Shown here piece by piece: positions 4,027-9,082 of a stretch of DNA of 21,838 nt. The stretch lies in contig CP070688.1 of assembly GCA_020353135.1 (NCBI GenBank), positions 709,583-731,420 on the forward strand. Reading direction: 5' to 3'. Each line of letters begins with the position of its first letter. Positions within the stretch are counted from its first letter, which is position 1. The stretch is from Chloroflexota bacterium (GTDB taxonomy: Bacteria; Chloroflexota; Anaerolineae; Promineifilales; Promineifilaceae). Under the pieces are notes generated by a model, which saw only the letters and a program-made list of their open reading frames with translations, ran no database searches and was not told the origin of the DNA. The translations under genes were made by a program, and so were the position numbers.

Positions 4027-4449
4027 CTAACCCCTGCCCCTTTCTTCCCTCAACGCAAACCAGCGCCAGACCACAAAGGTCGTCAGGAAGGGCAGTAGAA
4101 GGGCCAGGCAGCGAACCACTGAACCCGATATCGTCAGCGCCGAGCCCAGCAACATGATCACGGCGAAGACCAGCACGCCCCAGGCCAACCCGGCCAGGAA
4201 TGAACGGCCGTCCACCGGCAGAAAGCTGGTCAATCGAGTGCGCTCTCCGGATCTGCCTTCATCCTCAAGTTCGGGCTCCTCTTCAGAATCTACCTCGGCG
4301 ACTTCGTCTTGGCGGCGCAAGTAATCCAGCATCTCCTGGCCCTCAGGCGGAGTGAAGCCGCAGTGCTGGCACCGCGCTCGATCGCTCCAGGGATCGTAGT
4401 CGCTGCTCTGGCCACATTGGGGGCATTCGAAAACGTTCGTTTGTGTCAT
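4027..4449 (-). CDS. Zinc-ribbon membrane protein, function unknown
   Basis: A 140-residue protein with an N-terminal zinc ribbon: two CxxC pairs (Cys9/Cys12 and Cys27/Cys30). An acidic linker (about 50-66) follows, then two predicted membrane segments (about 84-106 and 110-130). The N-terminus probably sits in the cytoplasm. I do not recognise a specific family; in these lineages such proteins are often annotated only as zinc-ribbon proteins. Its ATG overlaps the stop codon of the upstream acetyltransferase remnant (ATGA at 4449-4446), which suggests translational coupling. Its end overlaps a short TGAAAGCTGA repeat. Confidence 0.75.
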   Translation of the reverse strand: MTQTNVFECPQCGQSSDYDPWSDRARCQHCGFTPPEGQEMLDYLRRQDEVAEVDSEEEPELEDEGRSGERTRLTSFLPVDGRSFLAGLAWGVLVFAVIMLLGSALTISGSVVRCLALLLPFLTTFVVWRWFALREERGRG

Positions 4450-4640
4450 GACCCATCGTCGGCGGCCGTCAACCGCTTGCCCATGCTGATGCGTTCTTCG
4501 ACTTCGTAACCCAAATGGCGATAGAAAGCCACAACCGACTCGTTTGAAGCCCGGACCTGTAGATTGAGTTTCGGGCAGCCAATGCGGGCCACGGCCGATT
4601 CATCCTCTTCCAGGTAAGATCTTATCCGGATTTCGGTCAT
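4446..4640 (-). pseudogene. GNAT acetyltransferase remnant with internal in-frame deletion
   Basis: The 64-residue frame joins the first about 20 residues of a GNAT N-acetyltransferase (MTEIRIRSYLEEDESAVARI) directly to its last third (GCPKLNLQVRASN, then VVAFYRHLGYEVEERISMGKRL). The C-terminal part closely matches the end of YpeA/RimI-like acetyltransferases of about 140 residues. The missing middle of roughly 75-80 residues includes motif A (R/QxxGxG/A), which binds acetyl-CoA, so catalysis is not expected. The reading frame and the ATGA coupling to the next gene are kept. A sequencing or assembly deletion is an alternative explanation. Confidence 0.72.
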
Positions 4641-4714: not shown

Positions 4715-5401
4715 TCAGGTAGTCGACCAACTGTCCTCAAATGGGTCCCAGAATGGCCCTTCCAGGCCAACTGTGGCGAAGATCTGCGATATCTCGCCGG
4801 CCGCCGGCCGCCGGGAGTCGACTGTCAGCCGATTGCCATACCAGGTATCGGCCAGGTACCAGAGCTGAGACATCGTTATTGTCGGTCGTATGGCCAGGTC
4901 GCGCTGCCGGCACCAGGCTTCCACGTCTTCTCCCGACCGGAAGAAAAGCATCGTCTGTCAGGTATAGATGATATCTTGCCACCACAAAGCGGCCGGCACG
5001 GCGAAATGGGCCAGGCAATCAACCGGCAGCACCCGTTCCTGCCGCACGTGAATTGGCAAAGATTCGCCCGAGTAGGCGCAGGTGGCAACTATGTCGGCAT
5101 CTTGATGCAAGGCCGCGGCCACGCCGAGAGCATCCCAGGCGCAATTGGCATGATACGACTTGCCCATTACCCGGACGAGAACTGGCGTCTCGATGCCCGA
5201 AAAGGGCGGGGCCATTCGTATGCGTGTTTTGTCGCCGGGCTCCAGGACCAGCAGCCGCTGGTTGGCCAGGGCCTCGAAAGCCTGCTGGACCTCGGCCGGC
5301 GGCCGGCCCATTGATTTCGCGACGTCGGTCACATCTGGCACTTGCGTCGTCTCGGCGATGGTCTGGTAGATGTTCATCTTCACGGCCGTCGTAAAGTCCA
5401 A
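4715..5401 (-). CDS. MerB-like organomercurial lyase homologue, predicted selenoprotein (in-frame UGA)
   Basis: Read through a TGA at 4960-4958, this gene encodes 228 residues of the alkylmercury-lyase (MerB) family. MerB cleaves carbon-mercury bonds in the cytoplasm. Residues about 10-65 form the winged-helix-like N-terminal domain. Cys87 and Asp90 in NCAWDALG match MerB Cys96/Asp99, and Cys108 in TCAYSGES matches Cys117. The UGA is codon 148, in YT-U-QTMLFFRS, aligning with catalytic Cys159. Downstream residues 149-228 continue in the same frame as an ordinary MerB C-terminus. A hairpin with a GGUC loop follows the UGA (separate entry). The start is TTG at 5401 with AAGGAGG (5413-5407) 5 nt upstream; an ATG at 5377 is the alternative. 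No merR, merA, selA, selB or selC is visible nearby. A nonsense pseudogene is the main alternative, but UGA identity, position and hairpin argue for selenocysteine. Substrate specificity is unproven. Confidence 0.85.
4926..4960 (-). promoter_or_regulatory. Predicted bacterial SECIS element with its UGA codon
   Basis: On the minus strand the UGA (4960-4958) is followed after 10 nt by TTTTCTTCC (4947-4939), loop GGTC (4938-4935) and GGGAGAAGA (4934-4926). The arms form nine continuous pairs, two of them G-U. The apical loop GGUC starts 19 nt after the UGA. In the well-studied E. coli fdhF SECIS the loop also contains GGUC, about 18 nt after its UGA. The geometry fits SelB-dependent selenocysteine insertion. 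Confidence 0.78.
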
Positions 5402-5422
5402 TTGTCCCTCCTTCTTTTCGCC

Positions 5423-5484
5423 ATTTTCCCGGAAACTACATTGGCTCATTGATGTAGGTAAGGCAAACCAGTTTCCGGGAAAAT
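5423..5484. repeat. Perfect 15-bp inverted repeat containing two TTTCC(S)GGAAA palindromes
   Basis: ATTTTCCCGGAAACT (5423-5437) and its exact complement AGTTTCCGGGAAAAT (5470-5484) are separated by 32 bp. Each arm is itself a palindrome, TTTCC-S-GGAAA, centred at 5430 and 5477, which looks like a pair of operators. A nested CTACAT/ATGTAG pair (5436-5441 and 5452-5457) lies inside. The repeat sits between the methyltransferase stop and the ribosome-binding site of the MerB-like gene. There is no T tract after it, so a plain intrinsic terminator is less likely. A weak minus-strand promoter (TTGCCT 5466-5461, N17, CAATGT 5443-5438) would lie between the arms. Confidence 0.7.
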
Positions 5485-5493
5485 AGCAACGAA

Positions 5494-6492
5494 CTAGTGA
5501 GCCTCGATCACACACCACTCGAGTTGCGTCTCGGCGACCGGAAATCCGTCGATAACCGCGCCTTCGATCACGACGCCGGTCGGAGTCCGCCGGGCCGGGC
5601 CGGCGCAAGCATTGGCCACTTCGGCTAACCAGCCGCTTTCGGCGAAGCGGTCCAGAGCCGACTGCTTGAAGAGTAGTGCGTCCAGACCAGCCTGTCGCAG
5701 CGCCTGGCCGTTCGCCTGATCGTCAGTCGGATAGAAGTGCGAGACAGCCAGAAAGGCGCCAGCCACGATGCGCCGTAATTCGGCCAGTAACTCGCCTGGC
5801 TGCTCGACGTTGGGCAAGCCGAGGTAGGTCGTCAGTAACGGTACGATCCCGGTTCGCATTGGCGTGCGGCGGGCATCAAAGGCCAGCAGACTGACCTTTT
5901 CATACTGCCTGAGATGCTTCAACCATCGCCGGTTGCGCTGCAATACCTTGAGGCTGAAGTCGGTGGCGACAACCAGGCGATCTGAATCGCCGATCATTCG
6001 CTCCACCAGGTGGCCTCGGCCGGATGCCAAGTCGACGACTGGGCCATCATAACCGGCCAGTTGTTCGATGACATAGGCACCCTGGCTGTCCGAACAGGCC
6101 CGACATTCGGCCGTGTAAAGCCTTTGATTGGCCAGCGTTTCAGCCCGGGTTGCCTCGTCAAAGTCGCCCCTTTCTTCGGCGGCCATGGCCCGGAAGAACT
6201 GGTCGGCCGGGGCCAGCGACTCCAGCGGGACCCCCATCAACCGCTCGTCGACGTCGGGCTTGTCGCGCAAATACTTGACGAGCGCGCTGTCGACATCCTG
6301 CCACAGGTCATCGCGAGGCAAATCGGGCAAGAGAAACACGCCGATGCCGTCGCGAATCGGGTACGCTTCTTCGCACGCTTGGCAGAGCGCCTGGCCCGAC
6401 TCGATATGCGCGCCAGCCCGTTCTTCTATCCGCCAAACGAGGTCATCATGGCATGCCGGACAGACAAGCCAATCGGTAAGAAATTCGTGCAA
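5494..6492 (-). CDS. Trm112-domain class I SAM-dependent methyltransferase
   Basis: A 332-residue cytoplasmic protein. Residues 1-52 form a Trm112p-like zinc-binding domain with CPAC (Cys11, Cys14) and CQAC (Cys37, Cys40) followed by YPIRDGI. A class I methyltransferase domain follows, with SAM motif I VVDLASGRGH at about 152-161 and the acidic TDFS at the end of strand 2 (about 177-180). The substrate cannot be told. The start is TTG with GAGGGG five bases upstream; no ATG is in frame close by. It lies 78 nt after the VWA gene and 92 nt before the MerB-like gene on the same strand. Confidence 0.85.
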   Translation of the reverse strand: MHEFLTDWLVCPACHDDLVWRIEERAGAHIESGQALCQACEEAYPIRDGIGVFLLPDLPRDDLWQDVDSALVKYLRDKPDVDERLMGVPLESLAPADQFFRAMAAEERGDFDEATRAETLANQRLYTAECRACSDSQGAYVIEQLAGYDGPVVDLASGRGHLVERMIGDSDRLVVATDFSLKVLQRNRRWLKHLRQYEKVSLLAFDARRTPMRTGIVPLLTTYLGLPNVEQPGELLAELRRIVAGAFLAVSHFYPTDDQANGQALRQAGLDALLFKQSALDRFAESGWLAEVANACAGPARRTPTGVVIEGAVIDGFPVAETQLEWCVIEAH

Positions 6493-6570: not shown

Positions 6571-7947
6571 TCAACTGCTGGTAAGCAACGAGTCCACCGC
6601 GGCTGATAGCTGGGCCAGGTTGCGTACCATCAATACCTCATCGCAAATGGGCGCGTATTCGAGCATGTCGCTGTCGCCGGTGCCCCATTGTTGCCGATGC
6701 TCTGGATTAAACCACAGCAGGCGCTTGGCCCGCAACTGCATGCGCTTCATCAGGTCAATGCGCGGCGAATTGTAATTGTTGCGGCCGTCGCCGAGGATGA
6801 TCACCGTCGTCCGGCCGTTGACCGAATCAGACCAATCCTTGAAGAAAGTGTCCAGGCTGTGCCCCAAATCGGTCGCATAATAGCCGGGCGGTATGCCATA
6901 TAGGACATCGGCCACGGCATCGGCCGCCCGCTTGCCGGACATGGTGACGCTGATCTCTTGCATGTCCGCGTTGAAGGCGTAGCTGCGCGCCTTGGCCACC
7001 TGGTCCTGCAACTCATATATGAGCCGCAGCATGAATTCGGCCACCGGCCGCATGGAGGTTGACACATCGCAGATCAGTACCAGGCTCGGCTTCAGTTTCT
7101 TCTTCTTGTACTTCATATCGAAGGGCACGCCGCCATAACGCTGATTGGCCCGGATCGTTGCCTTGGGATCAAACGCGCCAGCCTTACCCCGCTTGCGTCG
7201 CAGGGCCGCCCGGCTGCGCAATTGGGCCACCAGCCGCTGCACTTCCGCACGCAAGAGCGCCGCTTCAGCCTCGTTCAACGCTTGAAACGACTTGTGCATC
7301 AAGTCCGAGCCGTGCAGCTCTTGCGACCGTTCTGCTCTATCCTTGGCCACTTGCAGGCCAACCCGCTGGGCCACCTGTTCGGCCAGCGCCTCGCGGTTGG
7401 CCTCGACCACGCCCAGCAGCTTCTCGATCGCCTCCTGGCTCATGCCCATTTCCTGCAAATGCCCGACGAGCTGCTGGATCTGTTCTTCCAGGTGCTGGAA
7501 TCCCATCTGGCGCAGCATTCGCCGGCTCACCCAGCGCGCCTCGCCGGGATTGTTCGCCCAGCGAGCGCCTGAACGTCTGGCCAACTCCTCCAGCTCCTCG
7601 CGCGTCGGTCCCTGACCGGAAGTTAGCCAGTCGATCAGTTGCTGCAAACGACCACTCATCGCCGACAATGCGGCCTTAAGCATCTCTTGCTCATCTGGGC
7701 CAAGATCATCCCGCGCGTCCTGCAACGGCGGACCGCCGCTGCCGAAATACAGAGGGAATAGCTCGTCAAAAACCGGATGGTCAGCCGACTCTTTGACCAG
7801 CGTCGCCCGCAACGAATCTCGGAATAGTTCTTTGTTCTGCACACCCAGAACACTCACGGCCTGCATGGCATCCACTGACTCGGCCAGGGATACGCGGACG
7901 CCGGCCGCACGCAGGCCGCGCACAAATTCGACGACTCTATTGTCCAT
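6571..7947 (-). CDS. CoxE-type von Willebrand factor A domain protein
   Basis: A 458-residue protein of the CoxE-like VWA family. The N-terminal 280 residues are largely helical and charged. The C-terminal VWA domain has an intact MIDAS motif DVSTS (294-298) and a later GDGRNN segment. Proteins of this type pair with MoxR AAA+ ATPases to remodel or load metal into a client enzyme. The ATG at 7947 is preferred because GAGG lies 5 nt upstream; a GTG 12 codons earlier is possible. It overlaps the end of the ATPase gene by 11 nt, so the two are translationally coupled. No CO dehydrogenase genes are in the window, so the name coxE is not justified. Confidence 0.88.
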   Translation of the reverse strand: MDNRVVEFVRGLRAAGVRVSLAESVDAMQAVSVLGVQNKELFRDSLRATLVKESADHPVFDELFPLYFGSGGPPLQDARDDLGPDEQEMLKAALSAMSGRLQQLIDWLTSGQGPTREELEELARRSGARWANNPGEARWVSRRMLRQMGFQHLEEQIQQLVGHLQEMGMSQEAIEKLLGVVEANREALAEQVAQRVGLQVAKDRAERSQELHGSDLMHKSFQALNEAEAALLRAEVQRLVAQLRSRAALRRKRGKAGAFDPKATIRANQRYGGVPFDMKYKKKKLKPSLVLICDVSTSMRPVAEFMLRLIYELQDQVAKARSYAFNADMQEISVTMSGKRAADAVADVLYGIPPGYYATDLGHSLDTFFKDWSDSVNGRTTVIILGDGRNNYNSPRIDLMKRMQLRAKRLLWFNPEHRQQWGTGDSDMLEYAPICDEVLMVRNLAQLSAAVDSLLTSS

Positions 7948-8878
7948 GGCGACCTCGCCGGCCCGGCTCTTGCCGCCCCCCACTATCGCTCAACAAGCGC
8001 CGGGCGCTCTGTACGTCCGCTTCATATTTCAACAGCACCGTGAGCGTATTGCGCATGGTCTCTCCGTCGATGGTCTCGGCATTGAGCGCCAGGAGTGCCC
8101 GGGCCCAGTCGAGGGTCTCGCTAATGCTGGGAACCTTGCGCAAATCCATATGTCGCAATTGCTGCACCACTTCGACGGCTTGCCGGGCCAATTCCGGGCT
8201 AAGTCCAGGCACCTTAAGGCGCACGATATCCAGTTCGGCTTCAATGGTTGGATAGTCGACAAAGAGATAGAGGCAGCGCCGTTTCAGCGCCTCGCTCAGG
8301 TCGCGGGTATTGTTACTGGTCAACAGAACCATCGGCTGATGGACCGCCCGAATCGTGCCCAGCTCAGGCACGCTGACCTGGAAGTCGCTCAGAACCTCTA
8401 ACAGAAAAGCCTCAAACTCGACGTCGGCCCGGTCGATCTCGTCAATCAATAAGACGACCGGTTCCTCGGCCGTGAGCGCTTTCAACAGCGGTCGAGGCAA
8501 GAGGAATTTATCGGAGAAGAAGACGTCCTCTTCCATGGCCAGGCGTTCGGCCGCTTCGCCCAGGCTGCCGGCGTCACTCAAGACATCGCGTAGCGTATCC
8601 CGCAGCAGCTGGGTATAGAGCATTTGCTTGGCGTACTCCCACTCGTAAAGCGCTTTGCTCTCGTCCAGCCCTTCGTAACACTGTAGCCGGATCATAGGGC
8701 TGCCCAGCGCGGCCGCCCAGGCCTTGGCCAGCTCAGTTTTACCTACGCCGGCCGGGCCCTCGGTCAAGATTGGCTTGCAAAGAGACTGGGCAAGATAAAC
8801 GACGGTGGATATCTCATCTGAAGCGATATATTGCTGGGCGCCTAGCCCATCACGGACATCGTCGATGTTCCTGAACAT
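7937..8878 (-). CDS. MoxR/CoxD-type AAA+ ATPase
   Basis: A 313-residue AAA+ ATPase of the MoxR family. Walker A is GPAGVGKT at about 41-48, Walker B is VVLLIDEID at about 140-148, and sensor/arginine-finger segments TSNN and ALKRRC follow. The start ATG at 8878 is supported by GGAGG six nucleotides upstream; an in-frame extension to 8956 has no such site and looks unrelated to the family. It overlaps the VWA gene downstream, the classic MoxR-VWA operon pair. The client enzyme is not evident from this window. Confidence 0.92.
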   Translation of the reverse strand: MFRNIDDVRDGLGAQQYIASDEISTVVYLAQSLCKPILTEGPAGVGKTELAKAWAAALGSPMIRLQCYEGLDESKALYEWEYAKQMLYTQLLRDTLRDVLSDAGSLGEAAERLAMEEDVFFSDKFLLPRPLLKALTAEEPVVLLIDEIDRADVEFEAFLLEVLSDFQVSVPELGTIRAVHQPMVLLTSNNTRDLSEALKRRCLYLFVDYPTIEAELDIVRLKVPGLSPELARQAVEVVQQLRHMDLRKVPSISETLDWARALLALNAETIDGETMRNTLTVLLKYEADVQSARRLLSDSGGRQEPGRRGRHGQ

Positions 8879-9082
8879 ACTTTGCCTCCATAAGGCTGCG
8901 ACCCCATGATTTCCATGATACTTGATGCGATGTAGGGTCAGGCTGCGCTTCGTCATTGAAACGCGTTTCTATGTTCTGTGCCACTGGCCCCGCCTTGTTC
9001 ACTGGTCCCTGATGAAATGATCCGGCCGCGAAAGATACCGGCGCGGGTCAACAAGTAATCCAGGTGTGTGCAAGTGTTAACG

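Follow-up and report, generated by a model that had tools for sequence, protein, structure and literature searches.

A predicted selenocysteine-containing MerB-type protein with an in-frame UGA at the catalytic Cys159 position in a Chloroflexota bacterium

The organomercurial lyase MerB cleaves carbon–mercury bonds, and Cys96, Asp99, and Cys159 are involved in the reaction (PMC4525700; PMC8261052). A second described protein, SaoL, is listed in a review as a MerB-like selenoprotein and organometallic lyase with the motif CU, and the same source names a selenocysteine (Sec)-assisted organometallic (SAO) system (PMC13188914). A review from 2022 had already listed an "alkylmercury lyase MerB-like" selenoprotein under an accession that a 2026 review calls SaoL. 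Here we analyze a gene in a 21,838-nucleotide stretch of DNA from a Chloroflexota bacterium (contig CP070688.1, positions 709,583 to 731,420; hereafter the window), which lies on the minus strand at 5401–4715 and which a sequence-only reading had proposed to encode a Sec-containing MerB homologue. The gene product is very probably a full-length enzyme of the MerB fold. At its Cys159 position, UGA codon 148 is likely decoded as Sec under the direction of a hairpin, and the enzyme would cleave metal–carbon bonds such as that of methylmercury.

The reading frame comprises 228 codons from a TTG start (5401–5399) to a TGA stop (4717–4715), and reading TGA as Sec yields a 228-residue product with a single internal UGA, codon 148 (4958–4960, minus strand). 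The TTG at 5401 is probably the gene start, as it stands directly behind a Shine-Dalgarno-like GGAGG (5407–5411, minus strand), and the start matches in most listed relatives, 87 of 122 rows read having a length of 147 amino acids. The PF03243 domain runs from residue 67 to residue 189, across the UGA, with 88.3 bits against a gathering score of 27, which places the product in the MerB superfamily and bears out the MerB-like C-terminus that had been recognized behind the UGA; the product has the MerB fold as well. In a profile alignment to solved MerB, in which Sec was passed as Cys and residue positions were counted in the alignment, MerB residues Cys96, Asp99, Cys117, and Cys159 correspond to residues 87 (codon 5141–5143), 90 (5132–5134), 108 (5078–5080), and 148 of the window protein, all on the minus strand. 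The sequence-only reading was thus right in placing the UGA at the catalytic Cys159 column, in pairing the intact Cys87 and Asp90 with Cys96 and Asp99, and in taking Cys108 for the retained structural cysteine.

A protein search returned 2144 relatives, and in 118 of the 120 proteins listed, which include the window's own product, the C-terminal end is the same motif that directly precedes the UGA column. In 61 related genome loci, the codon at this column is TGA in 56, TGG in one (L049), and TGC in one (L061, a distant protein in which Asp90 is also changed), and in three loci the gene is broken or truncated by the time the codon is reached. Neither TAA nor TAG, which the sequence-only reading had taken to speak against it, occurs at the site in any of the 61 loci. 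Likewise, 73 profile rows have TGA in the column and no profile row has TAA or TAG. No clean frame was at first obtained for four loci (L051, L058, L059, and L060), which have broken frames or meet a contig end; part of L058 could later be included, and the misaligned Cys codons of L051 were left out of the count. As labelled in the records, the TGA loci span about twelve phylum-level groups (Planctomycetota, Verrucomicrobiota, Acidobacteriota, Chloroflexota, Gemmatimonadota, Actinomycetota, Armatimonadota, Calditrichota, KSB1, Krumholzibacteriota, Eisenbacteria, and Desulfobacterota), with two loci carrying no group label. PF03243 matches occur in 41 of 301 Chloroflexota genomes, and the 49 matches over the cut-off consist of 18 (in 15 genomes) with one or two TGA codons, one with TAG, which is a tandem copy in genome G300, and 30 that are stop-free; TAA was seen in one match below the cut-off (G329). 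Canonical Chloroflexota MerB rows, namely 10 of the 30 stop-free matches and the TAG copy of G300, have Cys at column 148 in 11 of 11 cases, and in 8 of 11 when the profile was blind at that column. All 29 rows compared have Thr immediately ahead of the Sec column, and the column of MerB position 117 holds Cys in 53, Asp in 15, and Val in 2 of 70 UGA rows.

Conservation extends across the UGA. Mean identity to the window protein in 61 other rows is 44% before the UGA and 47% behind it, and the median ratio of nonsynonymous to synonymous substitution rates (dN/dS) is 0.11 before and 0.08 behind in 25 close pairs, a few of which gave no estimate. On these comparative measures, the region behind the UGA is translated and under purifying selection.

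A hairpin resembling a bacterial Sec insertion sequence (bSECIS) follows the UGA at 4928–4945 on the minus strand. Its stem of seven conserved pairs, its GGUC loop (4938–4935), its distance of 19 nt from UGA to loop, and its folding energy of -13 kcal/mol in a 43-nt stretch all lie within the published limits (loop 3–9 nt, stem 4–16 bp, G in loop positions 1–2, 16–37 nt from the UGA, minimum free energy of -7.5 or lower). In the profile, every one of the 73 rows with TGA has GGUC 19 nt behind the UGA; L084, L090, and L091 fall outside the profile, and no GGUC hairpin was found at the matching place in them. This conservation is notable because the bases sit within codons of wide choice: CGG accounts for 71 of 71 Arg codons at the hairpin and TCG for 72 of 73 Ser codons, compared with approximate backgrounds of 0.23 and 0.31 estimated from these loci's own long open frames. 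The GGUC hairpin is absent from L049 and L061, the two loci with a sense codon in place of UGA, and CGGTCG occurs in only one canonical Cys row (L088). The outermost stem pair is C-G in 33 rows, U-A in 23, and U-G in none, and in L070, L095, L096, and L100, which are close kin on the tree, the closing pair has changed from C-G to U-A with a replacement of Arg by Trp and a switched Ser codon. The covariation score was 0.142 against 0.094 in shuffles that ignore kinship, with none of 500 as high, and slid versions of the hairpin reached up to 0.111; two of the five covariation measures lay within the shuffles, with 30 of 500 for base pairs altered at both positions and 187 of 500 for additional pair types.

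Sec genes were searched in 49 genomes, which represent 50 of the 61 loci (L019, L021, L028, L031, L037, L050, L051, L053, L058, L059, and L060 lie outside this search) and 47 of which hold the UGA form (G043 and G049 do not). By title, the genome records are metagenome-assembled genomes, most of them in many contigs. With E-values of up to 1e-20 for selA and up to 1e-30 for selD, and with selB counted only over its cut-off, the 47 genomes contained selA in 36, selB in 33, and selD in 40 cases, compared with 1, 2, and 2 of 14 controls. A loose SelB tally (49 of 49) was unspecific, being positive in all controls too, and so was the standard tally for tRNA-Sec (42 of 49, with 5 of 14 controls passing); we therefore counted tRNA-Sec hits of at least 60 bits, which were present in 36 of 49 genomes. 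In 34 of 42 selD-bearing genomes, an in-frame TGA lies somewhere within selD itself, which appears to be a sign of a genome that reads UGA as Sec. In Verrucomicrobiota, selA was found in 13 of 240 genomes overall and in 4 of the 8 tested genomes with the UGA gene (Fisher p = 0.0006), and in Chloroflexota in 244 of 301 genomes overall and in all 15 genomes whose matches hold TGA (p = 0.039). In G193, the nearest relative of the window's organism in the Chloroflexota sample by GcvP (67%), selA occurs together with the UGA gene.

Taken together, Sec recoding of UGA 148 is strongly supported by the comparative evidence, because the UGA is conserved, the hairpin behind it covaries, the downstream region is under selection, and selA accompanies the gene in most relatives examined. 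The proposal of a Sec-containing MerB homologue has therefore held up in its main elements: a conserved UGA, a fitting bSECIS, and Sec genes in most of the relatives' genomes tested. A selenolate is a stronger nucleophile and a stronger mercury ligand than a thiolate. In the proposed mechanism, SelB and tRNA-Sec would decode UGA 148 in the window's organism and, by analogy with MerB, Cys87 and Sec148 would bind the metal, Asp90 would deliver a proton so that the hydrocarbon is released, and the bound metal ion would then pass to cell thiols.

The distribution of active-site states places the window protein among its relatives. At the two catalytic cysteine columns, 88 rows comprise 61 Cys/Sec, 14 Sec/Sec, 12 Cys/Cys, and 1 Ser/Trp, and in a quick tree of these rows, built without bootstrap, a starred branch unites 33 Cys/Sec rows, and the window falls among them. 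The state of column 148 changes four times on this tree, or three times without L049. Fourteen relatives (L056, L070–L073, L092–L096, and L098–L101) have UGA at both the Cys96 and the Cys159 column, and the counterpart of Asp99 is Glu in some of them. Behind the first UGA of L070, L092, L094, L095, L096, L099, and L100 lies a second hairpin of the sequence GCCCUU-CGUGC-AAGGGC or similar, which is only suggestive because the peptide there is conserved too. Separately, L084 (Pfam match 877–1242), read by hand, encodes a canonical-looking MerB whose Cys159 column holds UGA followed by UGC and whose hairpin differs, and perhaps represents a separate origin of Sec. In L049 (8001–8630), the two catalytic ligands have been lost along with the GGUC hairpin.

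Several observations weigh against the interpretation as a Sec-dependent organometal lyase. The two full-length close relatives among the proteins listed have Gly and Trp at the column rather than Cys, and L049 combines Trp at the UGA column with Ser for Cys87. The outermost stem pair is unformed in 16 of 72 distinct rows, and the folding energy of the hairpin alone is ordinary (z = -1.45): shuffles folded as well as the native sequence in 17 of 200 cases for 43 nt, 117 of 200 for 56 nt, and 162 of 200 for 91 nt, where the best fold is a different structure. The case for the hairpin is thus carried by the conservation and covariation seen in the alignment, not by energy. The Sec-gene evidence comes from relatives' genomes instead of the window's own; among the 49 genomes, G015 and G019 gave no strong match to selA, selB, selD, or tRNA-Sec, G006, G041, and G048 have selD only, G024 has only a selB just below the cut-off, and the chromosome G007 has selA and tRNA-Sec with a partial selB and no selD match. 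The presence of selA in all 15 Chloroflexota genomes is weakly telling because selA is so common there. As to mercury, clustering of neighbouring frames of at least 90 residues within 7 kb, a range that contig ends shorten in many loci, revealed no neighbour family in more than six loci, and MerA was over the cut-off in 3 of the 49 relatives' genomes and in 1 of 14 controls. Because no neighbour recurs widely and MerA is rare, a mercury role is without contextual support.

The most recurrent neighbour family, in six loci, looks like an ABC transporter ATPase. We considered a mer-system context for the gene and rejected it, as the neighbours are not recurrent and MerA is not associated.

These results leave room for a Sec-containing MerB-fold protein whose natural substrate is not organomercury, acting on another organometal or handling metal without bond cleavage as proposed for SAO, an explanation that we consider possible and clearly less probable than a lyase for bonds such as that of methylmercury. 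The lack of recurring mer neighbours and the scarcity of MerA speak for it, as does the related SaoL, whose Sec occupies this column too and which is filed as an organometallic lyase in the review. On the other hand, the counterparts of Cys96 and Asp99 are intact, the nearest fold is that of mercury-bound MerB2, and missing MerA is weak evidence because MerB without MerA is common generally: about half of ordinary merB genomes (906 of 1795) also lack merA (PMC8261052). A Sec-dependent organometal lyase is the best-supported reading, with substrate and activity inferred from the fold, and the substrate may be an organometal other than methylmercury.

It is very improbable that the UGA is an ordinary stop, such that the 147-residue N-terminal part functions by itself and what follows is either a relic or a small gene of its own. 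Database gene calls do end at the UGA in nearly all proteins listed, yet no profile row has replaced TGA by another stop, conservation is equally strong on both sides of the UGA, the Pfam domain runs across the codon, and synonymous-site conservation and covariation are found directly downstream. Readthrough with tryptophan or another ordinary amino acid is the least credible explanation of all, since Trp at the column in one database relative and in L049 is outweighed by Cys in canonical relatives, by the loss of Cys87 and the GGUC hairpin along with the UGA in L049, and by the bSECIS-type hairpin and Sec genes that accompany the UGA form.

A large survey of mer genes demanded Cys at MerB position 159 (PMC8261052). 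The Sec form would escape such surveys because of this demand and because gene callers stop at UGA; it was found in about twelve phylum-level groups and would nevertheless go uncounted. A single fold with Cys/Cys, Cys/Sec, and Sec/Sec sites would also constitute a clean natural test of the contribution of selenium to metal–carbon cleavage. More tentatively, and with the balance of our judgement against it, Sec may be the usual, overlooked form of MerB-type organometal lyases in many uncultured soil and sediment bacteria, with a single Sec ligand in the family of the window protein and two in the sister families from Chloroflexota and Desulfobacterota. If true, these would be the most selenium-committed metal–carbon lyases known and an uncounted methylmercury sink, hidden because gene calls end at the UGA.

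Other features of the window surround the gene. A long inverted repeat at 5419–5485, with a 17-bp outer stem and -27.8 kcal/mol, lies between the upstream gene and the MerB-type start; a terminator, an attenuator, and a small mobile element are candidates for it. On the minus strand, a 64-residue GNAT-like frame at 4446–4640 (weak match, E = 0.012) is too short to be a complete acetyltransferase and looks like a remnant, a single frame at 5494–6492 couples a Trm112-like zinc domain with a downstream methyltransferase-like domain, and 6571–8956 encodes a VWA protein and an AAA ATPase that are MadC/MadB-like with scores below the MadC/MadB cut-offs. In an NCBIfam scan of four proteins encoded next to the gene in the window, no Sao model matched.

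With MerB (PF03243; PDB 3f0o/3f2f; MerB2, 5c17), the window protein shares the fold, the domain, the counterparts of Cys96, Asp99, and Cys117, and the column of residue 159. In contrast to MerB, it has UGA at the Cys159 column and hence lacks the canonical Cys96/Asp99/Cys159 set, it scores far below the cut-offs of the NCBIfam MerB models (38.3 of 193 bits for NF009710 and 35.5 of 200 bits for NF033555), and window-type loci have no recurring mer neighbours. Published MerB variants are distinguished by residues 99 and 117, in a paper whose main text does not contain "seleno"; position 117 varies in them as it does in the UGA rows of the window's family. No description of this family was found in the literature searched, where the text of the deep-Sep paper contains neither "merb" nor "mercur" and the main texts of the two sources cited by the 2022 review do not contain "merb"; an earlier notice of the family may nevertheless exist. 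SaoL (NF040728, a MerB-like organometallic lyase of the SAO system), which the sequence-only reading had missed, is already catalogued as a MerB-like selenoprotein and has its Sec in the column where the window protein has UGA; this lowers novelty only. The Sec position in SaoL was taken from the review table (PMC13188914) and from L090, which scores 175.7 bits, has Sec at the MerB Cys159 column in a CU motif, and alone exceeds the SaoL cut-off among 198 genomes from the phylum to which G047 belongs. We rejected an assignment of the window protein to SaoL, as it scores 45.3 of the 140 bits required. Its motif is TU (Thr-Sec) whereas that of SaoL is CU, and L090 lacks the GGUC hairpin and falls outside the window's group on the quick tree. 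Because SaoL carries Sec at the same site, the window protein is not wholly new in kind: judged from these comparisons, Sec at a Cys159-type site is already known in one family, and the predicted selenoprotein of the window belongs to a different one.
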